From Candidatus Kuenenia stuttgartensis (GTDB lineage Bacteria > Planctomycetota > Planctomycetia > Planctomycetales > Planctomycetaceae), in the NCBI GenBank assembly GCA_945861465.1, contig CAMAVB010000061.1, positions 1 through 32,898 of the forward strand: a stretch of DNA of 32,898 nt, written 5' to 3'. Below are positions 6,845-29,588 of this stretch, piece after piece. The position numbers were made by a program, and so were the translations under genes. The stretch's first letter is position 1, and every line of letters begins with the position of its first letter. The notes below the pieces were generated by a model that was not told where the DNA came from, did no database searches, and was given only the letters and a program-made list of their open reading frames with translations.

Positions 6845-6950
6845 TTAGGACCGACGCAGAAACAACTGTCATCTTCCGCACGTGGAGCACGTTTTTAACG
6901 TGCTCGGCACGATGGAATCGTGCCCCACTTATTTCTGTCTCAATCCTTAG
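6845..6950 (+). repeat. Dispersed structured repeat, family 2, copy 1
   Basis: A 106-bp element about 85% identical by eye to 24904-25009, in the same orientation. Two hairpins lie inside: GAGCACGTT-TTT-AACGTGCTC, and GGCACGAT-GGA-ATCGTGCC followed by an invariant CCCACTTATTTCTGTCT. The ends form an imperfect inverted repeat (TTAGGAC...CAGAA against TTCTG...TCCTTAG). The right end overlaps the stop codon of the universal stress protein gene. Confidence 0.85.
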
Positions 6951-14405: not shown

Positions 14406-17400
14406 ATGCCAGATCATGAACACATTTCAGATGATGACAAGAGACTGCTCGACGCCCTTTGCGAAGAGTTTGAAAGGGAACTCCACAAGAACGGCTCACA
14501 GCCTCAGATCGCCGATTTTGAGTCGCGCGTTCAGATGCCATTGAGGCAGCAATTGTCGGACAGACTGCATGAAATCAAACTCGATTTTCTCAGCCGCCGC
14601 GCGAATACGCTGTCGATATTTGAGCATGATGTCGATCACCAATTGCGGCTGACGGCGGCCGCGAGAGCGCCTCGGGGGATTCCGTCGGATCCTTCTCGAA
14701 AGACATCTGCGATTCCAGCCGAAGCCTCACATGAAACGTTGATCGTGCCGCAGATTTCGGGGCAGAACAGGAAACTTCTTTCGAACAGAGACGGAAAACA
14801 GCCCATCACGGAGCATGGAAGTTCGAGTTCCGGCTCCATGGACATCAATCTTATTCACACCATTTCGCCAGCGTATGATGATCTCCACAAGTATGCAGTC
14901 GAGGAGGAAATTGACCGCGGAGGCATGGGAGTCGTCCTGAAAGTGCGAGATCTCCGCCTTGGAAGAACCATTGCCCTGAAGCTGATTCTCGGCCAGGAAG
15001 ATCCGGAAAGCACGTTCCGCAGAACAGTTTCCGAAAGCATGCTTCACCGCTTCGTGCGTGAAGCACAGATCACTGGTCGACTTGATCATCCAGGCGTCGT
15101 GCCGATTCACGAACTGGCGACGGATGAGGAAGATCGCCTTTATTTCACGATGAAATTCGTTGAAGGAGAGACACTGAAGAGCGTCTACCGGCAACATTGG
15201 AGCGGATCCACGCACTGGACGCAGTCGCGAGTTGTGGACATCCTCATCCGCGTGTGCGAGACCCTCGCGTTTGCACATTCCAGGGGCATCATACATCGGG
15301 ATCTGAAACCCTCCAACATCATGGTCGGAAAGTACGGCGAAGTGTACGTGATGGACTGGGGACTGGCCAAAGTTCTGGGCGAAGCGGAATCGGATCTGAA
15401 CGAGTTCGCCGCGAAGCAGGACGGATCTTCGAGTCAGCAAACGATGTACGGCGCTGCCATTGGAACTCCCGGTTACATGGCCCCTGAACAGGCTGCGGGC
15501 AAGATCGACGAACTCGACTTCCGCACAGACGTGTATGCGCTTGGTACGCTGCTCTACGAACTGCTGTCGAGCCGGCGTCCGTATTCCGGTGAGTCACAAC
15601 AGACCGGCATGGAAGTCATTAAGAAGGTTCTGGCAGGCCCGCCGGTATCGATTCGCGAACTGAACAGAAAGGCGACACCGGAACTTAGTGCGATCGCGGA
15701 CAAAGCAATGCAGCGAGACAAATCCGCACGCTACGATTCGGCGTCAGATCTCGCGGAAGAGTTGCGTGCATTCGTTTCTCACCGGGTTGTGACGGCTTAC
15801 AGAACGGGGCTTGCCACGCGGCTGAAAAAATGGATTGCCAGAAATCAGAGTGTGACGATTGCCGGCATGCTGACCCTGATATCGATCATAGGAGCAATGG
15901 TCGTCCTCATGGCGATGCAGTATTCCTTCCAAAATGAGACACTCAGGACGAATGTTCAACTCGAGGAACTCGTCAAGGAAAAGGACGAGGCAATTCGGAC
16001 TGCTGTGGTCGCTCAGAATGAGTCAAATGGAATTTCCCTGATGAGCCATTCCCGCAAGCTGCGTGAAGCGGGAAATGCAACTCTGGCCGCACTCCTTGCC
16101 CTTGAAGCCGTAAAGAAATATCCCAGACCGCAGGCGACTGAGACGCTGTACGCTGCTGCTGCAGAAATGGTACCTTGCATCGAACTCAAGGGGGCATCTG
16201 GATCTCCGACGGATCTCGTCTGGAGCCCCGATGACGGCAACCTTTTGACTGTGCATGCCGATGGTCAAGGCTTCATCTGGAGGCTGGGAGATGCGCACCC
16301 TGTTGCCAAGCTTGTGAATCGTCAGAGGCGTCCGTTCGCCGCAGCATGCTATTCGAAAGATGGCGAGTTCATTGTGACCGCCGGAATGGACGGTACCCTG
16401 GCGACCTGGGATACTCAGACGGGCACTCGGATCCTGGCGATGGACGTTGGCTATTCTCGAAGCCTGACTGCTGACGACATCTCTCGTCCTGATCTTCTGG
16501 ATGCTGCGTTTTGTCTGAACGACCACAGTGTCGTGACGATGTCATATCAGACGATTCACCTGATCGATTTAAATGCCAGACGCGAGATTGCAACGCTTCC
16601 CGTTACGGAATCGACTCAGGAAGATGTTTCCCAGGGCGGAAGTCCATTTACGACGATGCGAGTCAGCCCCGACGGTCAGGTTCTGGTCGTTGGCTGTACC
16701 GATGGAACAGTGCTGATCTGGGAACTCGCTGAGCGGCGACTTGTGAAGGCATTTCGAGGCCATGCACAGGCTGTCCAATCAGTTTGTTTCGCGCCCGATG
16801 GCCTGAGCTTCGTGACGTGCGATCTGGACAGCAACGACATCAGCCTATCGACGACACATCCCGCACGATTGTGGGCAACGCAGTCAGGCGAACAACTCCG
16901 TGAAATTCTCCCGAAGGAACTTTCCGTGAGTTGTGTGGCATTTCATCCTAACAAGCCGTGCATCGCATTGGGCCTGAGAGATGGTTCAATTTGTCTCTGG
17001 AATTCCGTAACAAATTCAGCCAGCTGTTTTTCAACGCCTCAGCCCGACGATGTGCATCATATCAGGTTCTCACCAGAGGGCGATAAGTTGTCAACAGTCG
17101 CCGGTACAGCAGGACTGACTTCGTGGTTGGTTTTTGAAACGAAAGGCCAGTTGCAGCTGACCGAACTTGATCGTCTGGCAGGTCATCAGCGATCAATCGT
17201 TGCTCAGGAATTCAACGCTGCGGGCCTGGCGATGGCATCTGCTTCCCACGATTCGATTCGCATCTGGCAGACTTCGCTGCAAAGACCCGTTCCGACAATC
17301 GGAAATGTGGTACATCCTAACGCGGCTCGGATCAACGCTGCCGGCGATCGAATTTTTGCCGCGGATTCCGACGGAACAAGTGGACGACTCTGGAGCTATC

Positions 17401-19880
17401 CGGAGCTCAGAGAAGTCGCCGCGCCGGAATTCGGTGGCCAATTTAAAATGGGGGACTTCACATCGGACTCGCTGCACCTCGTCACCGTCACAACCGATGG
17501 GATCTGCCGCTTGTGGAATGTCGAAACGGGAGTTCAGGAGACGAGCCTGCCGTGTAACAGTCAGATCTGGACACATGGCTGTTCGGCAGACCGATTGTCT
17601 CTGAGTGGTCCAGCCGAAACAACCGTTTGGAACTGGCGCAGCAGAGAGCGGTTGGCCAGTATTCCCGTGGATGAGGGATGCAGGCATAGCCTTTCTCCAT
17701 CGGGACGTATCCTGCTGTCAGAGACTGCCGCTGGGGATACGAAGCGCATTGTTCGAATTGATCTGGATTCCAGAGTTGCCACCCCTGTGGAGGGAGCAGA
17801 AGTGACCACGCTTGGAGCGTTCTCGGCGAACGAGCGATACGTCTGGTGTATGAGCCGATCTCCGTCCGCCGGTGGGCCACTTTCTCCTGATGTGAAAGTG
17901 ATCGACACCGTTTCAAATCGTGTTCTTGTCACGGTCTCCGGGGAGACCGAAGGCGGCACGACGAATGTTCGCAGTGTTGCCTTTAGTTCTGATGGATCGC
18001 AGCTGCTGATTGACTATGCTGAGCATCCAGACTGTTCAGCCATTCTCTATTCGATTCCGGATGGTCGTCGATTGCAGCACCTTGGCGCACCAAAGGAGGC
18101 TGTGATTGGCTGGTCTCCTGACTTGATGCGAGTCGTAACACGCTCGCCTAAGTGGGGAACGCGGCTCTGGGATGCTGCCCAAGGGACGGTCCTGGCAAAC
18201 ATTGATTTGACGGGCGAAGCTCAACTGGCCGATTTCTCTACTGACGGCAGCCTGTGTGCAGTGCAGCTTCCTCCAGGTCCCGATGCGACGGAACATAGTG
18301 CAGGAAGCGTTGCGTTGTGGGATGCTGCCAATGGTGAGTTGATCGCGGCTTTGCCTGGCGAAAACAGACTTTTCTTCGGATCCGCATTTCTGCCGGATCT
18401 CTCTGCGTTGCTGACTATTTCGGGGCAACACACGCTGCGACTCTGGCCTGTCAATATTGCCCGCGATGCAAGAATGTATATCGATCGTGATCTCACAAGC
18501 GATGAGCAAACGATGTATGGGGTTGATGCAACCAGGAAGGCTGTTGCTGAACTGTCGATTCGGCAGAGTGACTGGAATGAGCTCAATGAGCAGATCCGCC
18601 TGTTGTTTCCGGTGACCAAAGAGCGAAGGGCGAAGGCATGGTCGCTGATGGAGGATGTGACTGAATGGCTCGACGAGAATCCAGATCCCGGTGAGGTTGA
18701 GGAATGTCTGGTTTCGGTCGATCGTCTGATCACGGGGCCATATGACACGGACCCGGGTTTGTTGGTGATGATTGCCGGAATTCATGAAAAGTACGGCGAC
18801 CTGAAGAAGGCGGCAAAGTTTATGGAATGGGCTGCATTCCATCCGCGCGCAGATTCCCGGGCTGCTGAATTGGCACGTTCAAGACGACTCATCGCGCCGG
18901 CAGTAGTCACTGATCACGCCGCTGACGAACTCGTCGACAACGCCCGCATTGACGACCAAGATACGGGTGCGGCTGAAAATCTGGAAAAAGCAAGGGCTTG
19001 GGCAGCGAAGGAATCGCCTCACTTTCATTCCTACTTTACAGCACGCGACCTACAGCTGAATGGAAAATCTGACGAGGCAGCACAGGTTTTTGCGACGCTG
19101 ATTACTGATGAGCTGGCAGGACCCGAAACGCTCCTTCATTATGCGCAATGTGAGTTGGCTCTTTCGCATTCCCAACAGGCATTCGACGCACTTCGCGCCA
19201 ACCTGAATCACGATTCCCTTGCCTCACGAGAGGTCTGGAATCTGTGGTTTCAGATCGCATTTCGAGATCTCGGGCTCACTCCGCAGCAGGTTCAGGCGAA
19301 TCTGCCAGCGCCCAGGAACCGATTGACGGCCGAGTTGTCTCATGAACAGCACCTTCGATGGCTGTTGGATCAGCTTATCAACGAAAAGCCGATTCGGATC
19401 AATTGTGGCGGCGAAAAGTACATCGCCGCTAATGGCGACGAGTGGGGCCCGGATGCCTTCTTTAAACACGGGCACGAGTATTTTGGGACGCGGGGTGACG
19501 CAGCAACTTTCAGCAAGCGCATTCGAAATACGCCGAACGCAGTTCTGTATCAAACCGAACGATACTTCAATCATGTACGAACAGATATCGTCCCCGGTTA
19601 CCGCATACCGCTGCCTAACGGGACATATTCTGTTACGCTGGGCTTTGCGGAAATCTATCAGGTCCGCCGTTCGTTTGATGTGCGAGTTGAAAATCGGGTC
19701 ATTTTGAGCGAATATGACCCACCCGTATCAGAATCCGACTGGGCCACCGCAGATTTGCATCAGGTGAAGGTTAGCATTGAAGACGGGCAGTTTGATCTGT
19801 ATCTTGTTTCCCACAATAACACTGACCCTAAAATCTCCTGCATTGAAATTTCGCCCATATCTGATACTATTGCACCTTGA
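14406..19880 (+). CDS. Giant Ser/Thr protein kinase with WD40 repeats and C-terminal malectin domain
   Basis: An 1824-aa protein. Residues 1-160 are an acidic, helical N-terminus. The Hanks-type kinase spans about 160-450: Gly-loop DRGGMGVV, catalytic loop HRDLKPSN near 296, DWG in place of DFG near 316 (VMDWGLAK), GTPGYMAPEQ near 355, and HRDL-Lys and APE intact. A single membrane helix (AGMLTLISIIGAMVVLMAM) lies at about 485-505, followed by a coiled linker. From about 600 to 1360 there are many WD40-like units (VWSPDDGNLLTVHADG, CFAPDGLSFVTCD, AFSSDGSQLL). A helical TPR-like stretch follows. The last 160 residues are a malectin-type carbohydrate-binding domain (INCGGEKYIAANGDEWGPDAF to GTYSVTLGFAEIY and FDVRVEN). 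Predicted topology is kinase inside and propeller plus malectin outside. It should phosphorylate proteins in response to a surface ligand, perhaps sugar; the ligand is inference. No ribosome site is evident. Confidence 0.93.
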   Translation: MPDHEHISDDDKRLLDALCEEFERELHKNGSQPQIADFESRVQMPLRQQLSDRLHEIKLDFLSRRANTLSIFEHDVDHQLRLTAAARAPRGIPSDPSRKTSAIPAEASHETLIVPQISGQNRKLLSNRDGKQPITEHGSSSSGSMDINLIHTISPAYDDLHKYAVEEEIDRGGMGVVLKVRDLRLGRTIALKLILGQEDPESTFRRTVSESMLHRFVREAQITGRLDHPGVVPIHELATDEEDRLYFTMKFVEGETLKSVYRQHWSGSTHWTQSRVVDILIRVCETLAFAHSRGIIHRDLKPSNIMVGKYGEVYVMDWGLAKVLGEAESDLNEFAAKQDGSSSQQTMYGAAIGTPGYMAPEQAAGKIDELDFRTDVYALGTLLYELLSSRRPYSGESQQTGMEVIKKVLAGPPVSIRELNRKATPELSAIADKAMQRDKSARYDSASDLAEELRAFVSHRVVTAYRTGLATRLKKWIARNQSVTIAGMLTLISIIGAMVVLMAMQYSFQNETLRTNVQLEELVKEKDEAIRTAVVAQNESNGISLMSHSRKLREAGNATLAALLALEAVKKYPRPQATETLYAAAAEMVPCIELKGASGSPTDLVWSPDDGNLLTVHADGQGFIWRLGDAHPVAKLVNRQRRPFAAACYSKDGEFIVTAGMDGTLATWDTQTGTRILAMDVGYSRSLTADDISRPDLLDAAFCLNDHSVVTMSYQTIHLIDLNARREIATLPVTESTQEDVSQGGSPFTTMRVSPDGQVLVVGCTDGTVLIWELAERRLVKAFRGHAQAVQSVCFAPDGLSFVTCDLDSNDISLSTTHPARLWATQSGEQLREILPKELSVSCVAFHPNKPCIALGLRDGSICLWNSVTNSASCFSTPQPDDVHHIRFSPEGDKLSTVAGTAGLTSWLVFETKGQLQLTELDRLAGHQRSIVAQEFNAAGLAMASASHDSIRIWQTSLQRPVPTIGNVVHPNAARINAAGDRIFAADSDGTSGRLWSYPELREVAAPEFGGQFKMGDFTSDSLHLVTVTTDGICRLWNVETGVQETSLPCNSQIWTHGCSADRLSLSGPAETTVWNWRSRERLASIPVDEGCRHSLSPSGRILLSETAAGDTKRIVRIDLDSRVATPVEGAEVTTLGAFSANERYVWCMSRSPSAGGPLSPDVKVIDTVSNRVLVTVSGETEGGTTNVRSVAFSSDGSQLLIDYAEHPDCSAILYSIPDGRRLQHLGAPKEAVIGWSPDLMRVVTRSPKWGTRLWDAAQGTVLANIDLTGEAQLADFSTDGSLCAVQLPPGPDATEHSAGSVALWDAANGELIAALPGENRLFFGSAFLPDLSALLTISGQHTLRLWPVNIARDARMYIDRDLTSDEQTMYGVDATRKAVAELSIRQSDWNELNEQIRLLFPVTKERRAKAWSLMEDVTEWLDENPDPGEVEECLVSVDRLITGPYDTDPGLLVMIAGIHEKYGDLKKAAKFMEWAAFHPRADSRAAELARSRRLIAPAVVTDHAADELVDNARIDDQDTGAAENLEKARAWAAKESPHFHSYFTARDLQLNGKSDEAAQVFATLITDELAGPETLLHYAQCELALSHSQQAFDALRANLNHDSLASREVWNLWFQIAFRDLGLTPQQVQANLPAPRNRLTAELSHEQHLRWLLDQLINEKPIRINCGGEKYIAANGDEWGPDAFFKHGHEYFGTRGDAATFSKRIRNTPNAVLYQTERYFNHVRTDIVPGYRIPLPNGTYSVTLGFAEIYQVRRSFDVRVENRVILSEYDPPVSESDWATADLHQVKVSIEDGQFDLYLVSHNNTDPKISCIEISPISDTIAP

Positions 19881-22765: not shown

Positions 22766-23824
22766 TTAGCGTCGCGACGTTGGCGACGAAGGAGGGCGAA
22801 CCGATGAAGGTGCGGGACAGCAATCAAGCGGACACACGTCGTGGTTAGCAGGGAATTGGCCGACGCATTCTCGATCAGCTCCGTGGATGCGTTCCTGAAT
22901 GAGTTTTCGGATCATGCTGACGAAACGCGGATGATTGCCCGGAGTGCCGGCGCGGACCATTCGAATTGCGTGTTCATCGCAGAATCGTCGCGCTTCATCG
23001 TCAAGATCGTAAAGGACCTCCATGTGGTCCGACAGGAATCCGATTGGCGAAATGACCACCTTCTCGACTCCGTGGGATTTTGCCTCCCGCAGATGATCAA
23101 GGATGTCGGGTTCCAGCCATGGATCCTGAGGACGACCGCTGCGACTTTGATAGACCAGTTTCCAGCGGGATTCCGGGAGATCAAGCTGTTCAGCGACCAG
23201 TCGGCACGATTCGCGAAGTTGCTTCTCGTAGTCTGATGTCGATGACATACTCAGCGGGATGCTGTGCGCCGTAAACGCAACGTGGACCGCGTCGCGGACG
23301 TCGACCGGGAAGTTTGCCAGAGCTATGCCAACCTGTTCGGCAAGTACGGCAATAAAGTCCGGATGATTATAGAACACGCGCAATTTGTCGATCTGCAATC
23401 CGTCAGCCTCAGGCTGCTCAAGAGCAGCGGCGATGTTCTCGCGGTACTGACGACAGCCGGAGTAGCAACTGAAGCCGGACGTGACGTACGTCAAAGCCCG
23501 CTTGACTCCATCCTGTTTCATCTGAACCATTGTGTCGTTGAGATAAGGCTTCCAGTTTCGATTGCCCCAATAGATCGGCAAGCGAATATCATGCGCGTCC
23601 AGCTCCTCTCGGAGTTCTGCGATCAGCACGCGGCACTGTTCGTTGATCGGACTGATCCCGCCAAAGTGGTAGTAATGCTCCGCGACTTCCAGCAGCCGTT
23701 CGCGTGGCACCGGTTTGCCGCGCAGGACATTTTCCAGAAACGGAATAACGTCTTCATGTTTTTCGGGACCTCCAAAGGACAGGAACAGGATCGCATCGTA
23801 ATGCACGCCGGGTGAGTTGTTCAT
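22766..23824 (-). CDS. hemH: Ferrochelatase (HemH/CpfC family)
   Basis: A 352-aa enzyme that inserts Fe2+ into a porphyrin in the late haem pathway. The active site shows AHSIP (His187) and DHMEVLYDLD (Glu269), the family pair for metal insertion. LSFGGPEKHEDVIPFLENV, FGGISPINEQ and YQSRSGRPQDPWLEPD are also conserved. The FGGPE...FLENV start and CYSGCRQYREN resemble the actinobacterial coproporphyrin-ferrochelatase branch, so the product could be coproheme; the sequence alone cannot decide. Cys120/124 plus C-terminal Cys320, 331, 335 and 336 (DVCPLDCCP) could hold a [2Fe-2S] cluster as in mycobacterial enzymes. The last 15 residues are Ser/Pro/Arg-rich and end in a repeat-like region. The regulator gene ends 10 nt upstream, suggesting an operon. 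Confidence 0.94.
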   Translation of the reverse strand: MNNSPGVHYDAILFLSFGGPEKHEDVIPFLENVLRGKPVPRERLLEVAEHYYHFGGISPINEQCRVLIAELREELDAHDIRLPIYWGNRNWKPYLNDTMVQMKQDGVKRALTYVTSGFSCYSGCRQYRENIAAALEQPEADGLQIDKLRVFYNHPDFIAVLAEQVGIALANFPVDVRDAVHVAFTAHSIPLSMSSTSDYEKQLRESCRLVAEQLDLPESRWKLVYQSRSGRPQDPWLEPDILDHLREAKSHGVEKVVISPIGFLSDHMEVLYDLDDEARRFCDEHAIRMVRAGTPGNHPRFVSMIRKLIQERIHGADRECVGQFPANHDVCPLDCCPAPSSVRPPSSPTSRR

Positions 23825-23834
23825 AAGAGGAGAT

Positions 23835-24701
23835 TCAGTCGCGGGGAATGAGAGTCGTGGAAAACGCTTCCAGGTGTCGAAAGTTGTCGCAGTACGTCGT
23901 GTAGCGGAGAAGGCGGCGAATGTCAGCCGTCAGCGCTTGACCTCCGACCGCGATTGCCGAACCAAACGTCGTTGCCGTGTCAAACAGTACATTAAAACCG
24001 GCAACGAATCGATCGACATCGCGAATGGATGCCACACTGAGCCACAGCAAACGCGGTCGATCACGTTCGAGGGCCTTGCACAGCGTCGCAAAAGGCAACA
24101 TGTTCCCCAATGAGTTCGCGCGCCAACCACAATCCCGGAGCACCAGTTCGGACATGGACGCCGCGAGCGTATACGGGTCACCATCCAGCGTGCCACCCAT
24201 GGCGAGCGGGCCGTCGATTTCCCCTGTCCCGACCGCGCGACGAAGTTCATGGATCACTCGACTGCATGTTTCACAGGCGCGGCGTTCTTCAAACACCTCC
24301 ATGCTCCCGCATTGCCACAGCTCGCCGATTTTTTGAAACGCAGGAGTGATGACCGTGTCGCAGATCGTCGCGACCGAGGTGTTGCTGAGGTACAGATCCA
24401 GCACAACTCGACGAGCAGTCATCTCGTCTCCGGAAGCCAAAGCCCCTTGAAATTCACTAATCCCACTGTCTCCATGCAGCGAAGTGGATCCCAATCCTTC
24501 AGGCAAACCAATCAGTTCCGGTCGGATGATTGATTTCCCAGCATCCCGCACGTAATGCAGAACAGAATCCAGTTGCAAACGCCGATGCCCGCCGCCCGTC
24601 TTTTCTGCCTGAATCAAGCCTTTATCGACCCAACGCTTCAGTGAAGATTCGCTCACCCCAATTGCAGCGGCAATCTCTTTTGGTGAAAAGAAAGGGCTCA
24701 T
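23835..24701 (-). CDS. CarH-like MerR-family regulator with degenerate B12-binding domain
   Basis: A 288-aa protein. The N-terminus (1-60) is a MerR-type helix-turn-helix, FSPKEIAAAIGVSESSLKRW then TGGGHRRL. A four-helix cap (about 85-155) and a Rossmann-like cobalamin-binding domain (165-285) follow, the layout of the light sensor CarH. Both metal-ligand motifs are changed: W-x9-EH reads Trp129...Glu139-Arg140, and E-x-H reads Asp175-Pro-Tyr177. The His that would bind cobalt is a Tyr and the cap His is an Arg. GALAS, GLFD-like and GSAIAVGGQAL segments suggest the fold is intact. It could regulate without B12, like myxobacterial CarA-type proteins, or bind another ligand. It precedes hemH by 10 nt, so porphyrin or haem control is plausible. 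Confidence 0.85.
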   Translation of the reverse strand: MSPFFSPKEIAAAIGVSESSLKRWVDKGLIQAEKTGGGHRRLQLDSVLHYVRDAGKSIIRPELIGLPEGLGSTSLHGDSGISEFQGALASGDEMTARRVVLDLYLSNTSVATICDTVITPAFQKIGELWQCGSMEVFEERRACETCSRVIHELRRAVGTGEIDGPLAMGGTLDGDPYTLAASMSELVLRDCGWRANSLGNMLPFATLCKALERDRPRLLWLSVASIRDVDRFVAGFNVLFDTATTFGSAIAVGGQALTADIRRLLRYTTYCDNFRHLEAFSTTLIPRD

Positions 24702-24903
24702 CGGATCTCAATCTCCAATCCGTCTGTCTCTGCTGTGCGCGTCACGAATGCACTCGTAAATTCTGTCGAAACTCCAGGCTTCGCAAGCCATTACCGGTTT
24801 TAGACAGTGTTTGATCCTCGCCCATTCTCTATCTGAACGATATGAGCGTTTTTCTGCGAAAAAACAGTGGGGCGGCCCTGAGGCGACCAATACTCCGCGC
24901 TGC

Positions 24904-25009
24904 TTAGGACCGGCGCAGAATTCACTGTCGTCTTTCGGACGTGGGGCACTTTTTTTACGTGCCCGGCACGATGGAATCGTGCCCCACTTATTTCTGTCTG
25001 AGTCCTGAA
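24904..25009 (+). repeat. Dispersed structured repeat, family 2, copy 2
   Basis: This is the second copy of the 6845-6950 element, in the same orientation. Its first stem reads GGGCAC/GTGCCC where copy 1 has GAGCAC/GTGCTC, a compensated A-T to G-C change. The second hairpin (GGCACGAT-GGA-ATCGTGCC) and CCCACTTATTTCTGTCT are identical. It lies between the regulator gene and the sialidase-like gene. Outside it, 24702-24903 shows nothing recognisable. Confidence 0.85.
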
Positions 25010-29439: not shown

Positions 29440-29485
29440 TCGTTCATCGAAAACATTGAGGCAGTCCCGGCACAAAGGCCAGTGG

Positions 29486-29588
29486 CTCTGTCTGTGATGA
29501 GCTGATGGGTTGTGTGCCACTGGCTCTGCCAGTGTTTCATGCAGGTCGCGAACACTGGCAGAGCCAGTGGCACACATCAAAGCACGAA
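29486..29588 (+). repeat. Dispersed double-hairpin repeat, family 1, copy 2
   Basis: The arms 29511-29536 and 29551-29576 form a perfect 26-bp inverted repeat with a 14-nt loop. Each arm is a CACTGGC-NNN-GCCAGTG palindrome. It matches 1398-1500 over its full length in the other orientation. It sits between the convergent cupin and YXWGXW genes, where it could act as a two-way terminator. Confidence 0.85.

Follow-up and report, generated by a model that had tools for sequence, protein, structure and literature searches.

A CarH-like regulator with tyrosine at the axial-histidine position, encoded next to hemH in a planctomycete

CarH proteins carry a W-x9-EH motif, and the pattern ExHx2G-x41-SxV/T-x22-27-GG has been quoted as the CarH signature (PMC8156234). 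In TtCarH the cobalt ligands are His177 on the lower side and, after illumination, His132 (PMC10442372). According to work on photocobilins, the Glu-His pair is part of a polar network around the adenosine (PMC10979010). The photoreceptor CtMerR binds AdoCbl and responds to green light (PMC11796333). A cobalamin domain can do without an axial histidine: Mmp10 binds five-coordinate cobalamin over a leucine (PMC8828468), and the cobalamin domain of HaAI-2E, which has arginine at the axial-histidine position, is reported to bind OHCbl as its sole cobalamin (PMC11796333). The SCHIC domain was described as differing from the AerR cobalamin domain by a longer beta3-alpha3 loop, the loss of the cap tryptophan and a shifted histidine (PMC9144470). 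The light-inducible genes of the class II LitR system in Pseudomonas putida include PhrB, UfaM, FolE and CryB (PMC9758184).

The window analysed here is a stretch of 32,898 nucleotides from Candidatus Kuenenia stuttgartensis, in which a CarH-like regulator is encoded together with hemH (Table 1). A literature search, with subscription papers mostly outside its reach, found no work joining CarH or B12-binding MerR proteins with planctomycetes, and a prior mention is possible. The window also encodes a Ser/Thr kinase of 1824 aa (14406-19880), which combines WD40 propellers with a malectin domain at its C terminus.

Table 1. Features of the regulator locus (positions in the window; residues of the regulator where marked).
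Feature	Position	Strand	Details
CarH-like regulator ORF	23835-24701	-	288 aa
MerR HTH	residues ~5-52 of the regulator		PF00376, 29.6 bits (cut-off 28.2)
Four-helix B12-binding_2 domain	residues 84-153 of the regulator		Pfam, 38.1 bits, E 1.8e-9
B12-binding Rossmann domain	residues ~163-287 of the regulator		PF02310, 18.4 bits, below cut-off 32.1
hemH (ferrochelatase)	22766-23824	-	NF000689, 445 bits (cut-off 408)
Operator-like tandem 9-bp repeat	24835-24852	+	GAACGATAT-GAGCGTTTT (GAACGATATGAGCGTTTT); 2 mismatches to GAACGWTTTGAACGWTTT
Putative -35 element	24819-24824	-	TGGGCG; genus consensus TGGCCA; inferred
Putative -10 element	24797-24803	-	CTAAAAC; genus consensus CTARAAC; 15 nt after -35; inferred

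Cofactor site of the regulator and its conservation

The W-x9-EH motif of CarH was found in the regulator as W-x9-ER (W129, E139, R140), and a D175-P176-Y177 sequence placed Tyr177 at the position of the axial histidine. Cys143 was also noted. Along the longer CarH signature the regulator read D-P-Y-T-L-A, x41, S222-V-A224, x28 and GG at 253-254. The x41 spacing, the Ser and the GG were thus retained, while the Glu, His, Gly and V/T were replaced and the final spacing of 28 was one above the quoted 22-27. The earlier note had stated that neither ligand histidine was present; this was correct for the axial position, but the histidine of the EH pair lies on the adenosine side and is no cobalt ligand. 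Hence, the regulator has one ligand histidine (position 177) replaced, plus one histidine of the upper pocket. The position of TtCarH His132 is occupied by Gln130, which follows the tryptophan, and it was also other than His in all 30 aligned CarH-like proteins of the phylum (Ala in 23). A literature search for tyrosine-ligated cobalamin, in the parts of the papers that were accessible, found no example.

The AF2 model of the regulator had a mean pLDDT of 92.3 and was built from an input alignment of 39 of the 45 homologue rows (G035_2, G044, G048b, G042, G030 and G024 were omitted). The PF02310 domain was degenerate and below threshold in Pfam, and the Rossmann part (residues ~163-287) was modelled at high pLDDT. 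The closest solved structure was the cobalamin photoreceptor CtMerR, with Z 26.6 over 219 residues, followed by photocobilins (Z ~24) and CarH (Z ~20); the haem-binding AppA SCHIC domain gave Z 19.9 at 12% identity. This comparison covered the families in the match lists. On the NCBIfam CarH equivalog the regulator scored 41.2 bits against a cut-off of 400, a value reached in none of 246 genomes of the phylum and therefore uninformative here. The same genome encodes cobalamin-domain proteins, with two matches above the PF02310 cut-off, one of them in a 1269-aa frame.

A homologue was present in 42 of 59 genomes, its own included; the set consisted of 18 genomes of the genus (17 with a homologue), 25 others with a homologue and 16 without. 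ER and DPY did not vary among the 15 close orthologues of full length in the genus, a count that includes the regulator itself, and this agreement was taken to exceed chance. The motifs reported in the earlier note were borne out, orthologues with intact histidines, sought as refuting cases, were found in 0/15, and a loss of both histidines confined to the strain itself was rejected. Over 45 aligned planctomycete homologues (a fragment, G001, and a weak, partial match, G052_2, were excluded) residue 177 was Tyr in 37, Asp in 5, Ser in 2 and His in 1, and residue 140 was Arg in 30 (29 ER, one DR), His in 13 and another residue in 2. Cys143 accompanied Arg140 in 29 of 30 rows and His140 in 1 of 13, which indicates a coordinated rebuilding of the upper face. 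A distant homologue, G044b, had D-F-H together with EH. In other lineages of the phylum, both EH and E-x-H were present in 30/30 CarH-like proteins, namely the 30 best-scoring CarH-model loci rather than all matches. The tree divided the planctomycete homologues from these 30 proteins at 100/100, the two sets having been found with different queries, so that intermediates were possibly missed.

All 37 proteins with Tyr177 kept G126, W129, E139, D175, G199, P203, S222, G253 and G254. Among the eight homologues lacking this tyrosine, W129 and E139 were kept in 3 and G253 in 4, and the first Gly of the GG pair was lost solely in this group (4/8; Fisher 5e-4, uncorrected for relatedness). The decay of the pocket where the tyrosine was lost suggests that Tyr177 and the nucleotide-tail pocket serve one ligand, and the strict retention of Trp, Glu, Ser and GG in the Tyr proteins argues for a bound ligand. 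In four homologues with a decayed B12 pocket (L071, L074, L069 and L068 of G030, G024, G044 and G048b, respectively) the Trp, the Glu, the Tyr and the first Gly were all gone; these proteins are possible apo-regulators.

Neighbouring genes and the shared tandem repeat

The hemH gene started 10 nt beyond the regulator stop on the same strand, and the distance given in the earlier note was confirmed by the coordinates, as was the identity of hemH by the NF000689 match. Of the 17 genomes of the genus that carry a homologue, 13, its own among them, had hemH directly downstream of the regulator. As to the exceptions, G003 and G015 have a different gene at this place, the homologue of G012 is a distant one, and in G001 the contig ends. 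Outside the genus the two genes were directly adjoining in 0/25 homologue-bearing genomes. In G027 hemH was ~2 kb from the regulator on the opposite strand, and G033 yielded no ferrochelatase. Conservation of the pair, a check proposed in the earlier note, was hence found within the genus and not beyond it, and the pairing appears to be a feature of the genus, not of the family. The hemH gene of G003 had no repeat site (described below) at up to two mismatches.

Protoporphyrin IX is an endogenous photosensitiser, and control of hemH plausibly limits it. A hemH double mutant of Shewanella oneidensis did not grow in light and the hemH1 mutant of Shewanella loihica was not light-sensitive (PMC6664582); the reference list of the same paper names E. 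coli visA as a light-sensitive ferrochelatase mutant. In M. xanthus, a light response driven by PPIX was boosted by hemH deletion (PMC8156234). The gene appears better explained as a target of the regulator, at the level of the genus, than as a supplier of its ligand.

An operon of FAD oxidoreductase, DUF1365 and CFA synthase genes adjoined the regulator in G003, G012, G017 and G048, as found by BLAST clusters with Pfam on representatives. It was located within 3 kb of the regulator in G035, and in G015 its first gene only was present before the contig end. DUF1365 is the domain found in UfaO, which belongs to the furan-fatty-acid pathway (PMC7380195). The G017 regulator neighboured both the furan-fatty-acid-type operon and hemH. 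Further, a UvdE gene was found 1.3 kb downstream in G048 (Pfam) and a UvdE homologue near the regulator-operon pair in G035 (cluster). SRPBCC-type genes (Pfam Polyketide_cyc) were near the regulator in G012 and G033, and by cluster in G027; a sigma-70 gene was near it in G027 and G054 (Pfam) and in G019 and others (cluster).

A tandem 9-bp direct repeat, GAACGWTTTGAACGWTTT (GAACGWTTT units), was observed in promoters of the regulators and of the furan-fatty-acid operons. The consensus came from reading 16 regulator promoters of the genus and 24 promoters of furan-fatty-acid operons by eye, and the repeat scores of these promoters are therefore not independent. At least 15 of 18 positions matched in 4/16 genus and 11/31 other regulator promoters, as well as in 9/14 genus furan-fatty-acid promoters, which had been read for the consensus, and in 1/10 others. 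Among the regulator promoters independent of the derivation the count was 10/30; R_G048 was excluded from it because its intergenic stretch is common to U_G048. No repeat was found within 300 bp at the regulator's own promoter in G020, G021, G028, G033 and G034.

Sites with at most one mismatch numbered 16 in 12 of the 18 genus genomes, including G004, in which the regulator was not found. Outside the genus, 15 such sites were recorded in 13 of 25 homologue-bearing genomes and none in the 16 genomes without a homologue (Fisher 4e-4 for 13/25 against 0/16, uncorrected for relatedness); two of the 13 (G024 and G030) carried solely pocket-decayed homologues. In G019, G045, G052 and G054 a site of this quality was immediately upstream of the regulator gene. 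At up to two mismatches, 54 sites were counted in the 18 genus genomes, 61 in the 25 other bearing genomes and 19 in the 16 non-bearing ones, against 16, 17 and 2, respectively, for a reversed-pattern control. Since 19 sites stood against a control of 2 in the non-bearing genomes, the reversed control gives too low a background for the forward pattern, and the contrast between genomes was modest at this threshold. At up to one mismatch the reversed pattern was absent from 12 chosen genomes, many of which had been picked because they already showed a repeat site.

In the window, the operator-like repeat was 134 nt upstream of the regulator ATG. None of 200 shuffles of the 300-bp regulator promoter scored as high as this site, this promoter being among those read for the consensus, and 16 of 100 whole-window shuffles had a repeat match at up to three mismatches. 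The own genome had four sites at up to two mismatches against two for the reversed control, and its furan-fatty-acid operon (C88) had a half site only (12/18, p 0.28). The window site would thus be weak alone, and its weight comes from its position and from recurrence in relatives. The element TGGCCA-N15-CTARAAC, drawn by eye from the same promoters, recurred in the regulator and furan-fatty-acid promoters of the genus. This points tentatively to a single sigma factor acting on both groups, possibly the one often encoded near the regulator. A generic sigma-70 promoter scan gave nothing near the regulator gene start. A dispersed intergenic repeat of ~103 bp was also noted at 24904-25006 and 6845-6947 of the window (87% alike), and one copy precedes the operator-like repeat by ~50 bp; further copies occur elsewhere in this genome, for example at L151, L086, L133 and L134. 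A second pair of ~103-bp repeats, inverted and 87% alike, was at 1400-1501 and 29485-29586.

The genes found at repeat sites included a sigma-70 factor at sites with 0-2 mismatches in G048, G020, G030 and G035 (Pfam); the G035 site sat between this gene and a divergent photolyase gene (Pfam). In G027 the site lay between SRPBCC-type and sigma genes. Fasciclin and folE genes were at the site in G000, and fasciclin in G011, G021 and G028 (Pfam), while folE or fasciclin at sites in G002, G003, G008, G012, G014 and G017, and an SDR gene in G004 and G015, were assigned from sequence only. An SDR/DUF2867 gene was at the G003 site, with DUF2805 and photolyase genes nearby. Further sites with at most one mismatch were in G024, G033:C88 and G017:C98, and PQQ-propeller-like genes were near sites in G002:C313, G006:C238, G007:C139, G010:C302 and G016:C324. 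By analogy with known light-inducible genes, the repeat-linked genes, apart from those at these further sites, would be a light-defence set. The light-related role suggested in the earlier note likewise gained support, as the repeat appears common to photolyase, folE, furan-fatty-acid and sigma-factor genes.

Two sites with up to two mismatches, at G000:C72 and C435, looked like chance matches and were rejected. Their loci (L110 and L112) lie on two contigs of this assembly and carry the same succession of near-identical genes, which suggests strain mixture or duplication. At another own-genome locus (L151, G000:C75, 8295-9450) two operator-like sites with three and two mismatches were 435 bp apart, between the fasciclin-folE pair and an FAD-oxidoreductase gene.

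Proposed mechanism and alternative explanations

It was proposed that the protein is a CarH/LitR-like regulator of a Tyr type, which controls a photo-oxidative-stress regulon via the repeats, holds a corrinoid over Tyr177 and induces hemH; on balance we think this probable, if by a small measure. The sequence, the predicted fold, the clade-wide substitutions, the gene pair and the recurrence of the repeat were observed, and from them we infer binding to the repeat, repression, a light cue and a cobalamin ligand. By analogy, the regulator is most likely a repressor. In the dark it would sit on the GAACGWTTT units of its promoter and keep transcription low, as CarH does. It would thus regulate itself, with hemH co-transcribed, and would also bind the repeats at other light-defence genes. 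The corrinoid would be base-off over Tyr177, with the tyrosine either ligating cobalt or facing a five-coordinate cobalt, and its upper face would be reshaped by Arg140 and Cys143. Light, or a redox or reactive-oxygen state made by light (e.g., singlet oxygen), would alter the bound corrinoid, upon which the regulator would release the DNA and the levels of regulator and hemH would rise. Fatty-acid modification, pterin and photolyase genes would be induced alongside elsewhere, and the extra ferrochelatase would drain protoporphyrin IX. The wider claim, that the clade consists of cobalamin photoreceptors or redox sensors with Tyr at the lower side of cobalt, an Arg/Cys upper face (the ligand perhaps being non-adenosyl) and a light-stress regulon in planctomycetes with haem synthesis as one of its parts, is tentative and less likely than not.

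The same regulon might also be controlled without any cofactor. In that case the B12 domain would serve for oligomerisation or docking only, and another protein would relay light, as happens with CarA/CarS of Myxococcus and, in Pseudomonas, with class II LitR and a short LOV protein. The regulator indeed has neither CarH signature motif intact, the missing W-x9-EH largely explains the B12-independence of CarA (PMC8156234), class II LitR is the effector of a LOV receptor (PMC9758184), and most of the pocket was lost in some paralogues of the clade (G024, G030, G044, G048b and G035_2). However, every one of the 37 Tyr proteins retained the Trp, Glu, Ser and GG, the first Gly was lost only where the tyrosine was absent (4/8), and an untargeted reading of the regulator's neighbours showed no antirepressor or LOV gene; this explanation was considered rather unlikely. 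Sensing of haem or porphyrin, with Tyr177 as the iron ligand or PPIX as the chromophore and with feedback on hemH, was judged improbable. It would agree with hemH being next door in 13 of 17 bearing genomes of the genus and with the existence of a haem binder of the B12 fold (AppA SCHIC, Z 19.9), but the corresponding stretch of the regulator (residues 195-258) aligned without gaps to the cobalamin-binding CtMerR, the cap Trp was present in 37/37 Tyr proteins, and residues 175-180 (DPYTLA) contained no His. Haem, moreover, has no nucleotide tail for the Ser/GG pocket, and beyond the genus no homologue directly adjoined hemH. The suggestion of the earlier note that haem or a porphyrin is bound instead of B12 was therefore not upheld, as the residues for the corrin and the nucleotide tail were kept in 37/37 and the SCHIC changes were absent.

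It is likewise doubtful, at a similarly low probability, that the repeat belongs to another factor, either co-inherited or part of the circuit of the sigma factor, and that the regulator-hemH pair is ordinary genus synteny. Synteny within a genus requires no functional cause, the sigma-70 gene has a repeat site in several genomes, and the common TGGCCA-N15-CTARAAC promoter points to one sigma factor; a site without a regulator was found in G004, and 19 sites with up to two mismatches occurred in regulator-free genomes. Against this stand the sites with at most one mismatch directly upstream of the regulator in G019, G045, G052 and G054, and the finding of such sites in 0/16 regulator-free genomes. 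Taken together, an altered cobalamin site or control driven by a partner would explain the locus better than haem or porphyrin. The altered cobalamin site is favoured because of the kept pocket, the CtMerR-like fold without SCHIC marks and the precedents of Mmp10 and HaAI-2E.

Relation to described regulators

What could be taken for a CarH with a broken motif becomes a clade of its own, marked by the conserved tyrosine and linked to an operator and a regulon that are both predicted. Two questions are thereby made testable: whether a B12 photoreceptor functions without an axial histidine, and whether ferrochelatase is raised in bacterial light defence under a CarH-like switch.

CtMerR of Chloracidobacterium thermophilum (PDB 8JBS/8JBT) was the closest structure both by sequence (E 4e-30) and by fold; it has EEH and D-L-H where the regulator has ER and D-P-Y. 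The photocobilins have a C-terminal bilin-binding domain, which is missing here, as the regulator ends at residue 288 and its model consists of HTH, cap and Rossmann parts. The AppA SCHIC domain shares the overall fold and an unusual axial residue, whereas the regulator keeps the cap Trp and has neither a nearby His nor a longer loop, the loop having been judged against CtMerR. In the cobalamin domain of HaAI-2E the axial histidine is replaced too, by Arg, but the architecture differs (PMC11796333).

The class II LitR proteins PplR and PmlR of Pseudomonas resemble the regulator in a probable regulon with a furan fatty acid gene, folE and photolyase (PMC9758184). They keep the four-helix bundle only, whereas the regulator also has a Rossmann domain and hence is not of class II. 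CarA of M. xanthus, by its published description, lacks an intact W-x9-EH as the regulator does (PMC8156234); the regulator in addition lacks the axial histidine. With CarH itself (class I LitR; T. thermophilus, M. xanthus) it shares the domain order of MerR HTH, four-helix cap and B12 Rossmann domain, the Trp and Glu of W-x9-EH, the GxxxP, the Ser and the GG, with light-defence genes as likely targets. It differs from CarH in the change of the axial His to Tyr, of the preceding Glu to Asp, of EH to ER with Cys143, and of Gly180 to Ala, and in having hemH as a likely target. Both CarH sequence signatures failed on the regulator, and it was therefore placed in a Tyr-type sister group of CarH rather than filed as CarH.
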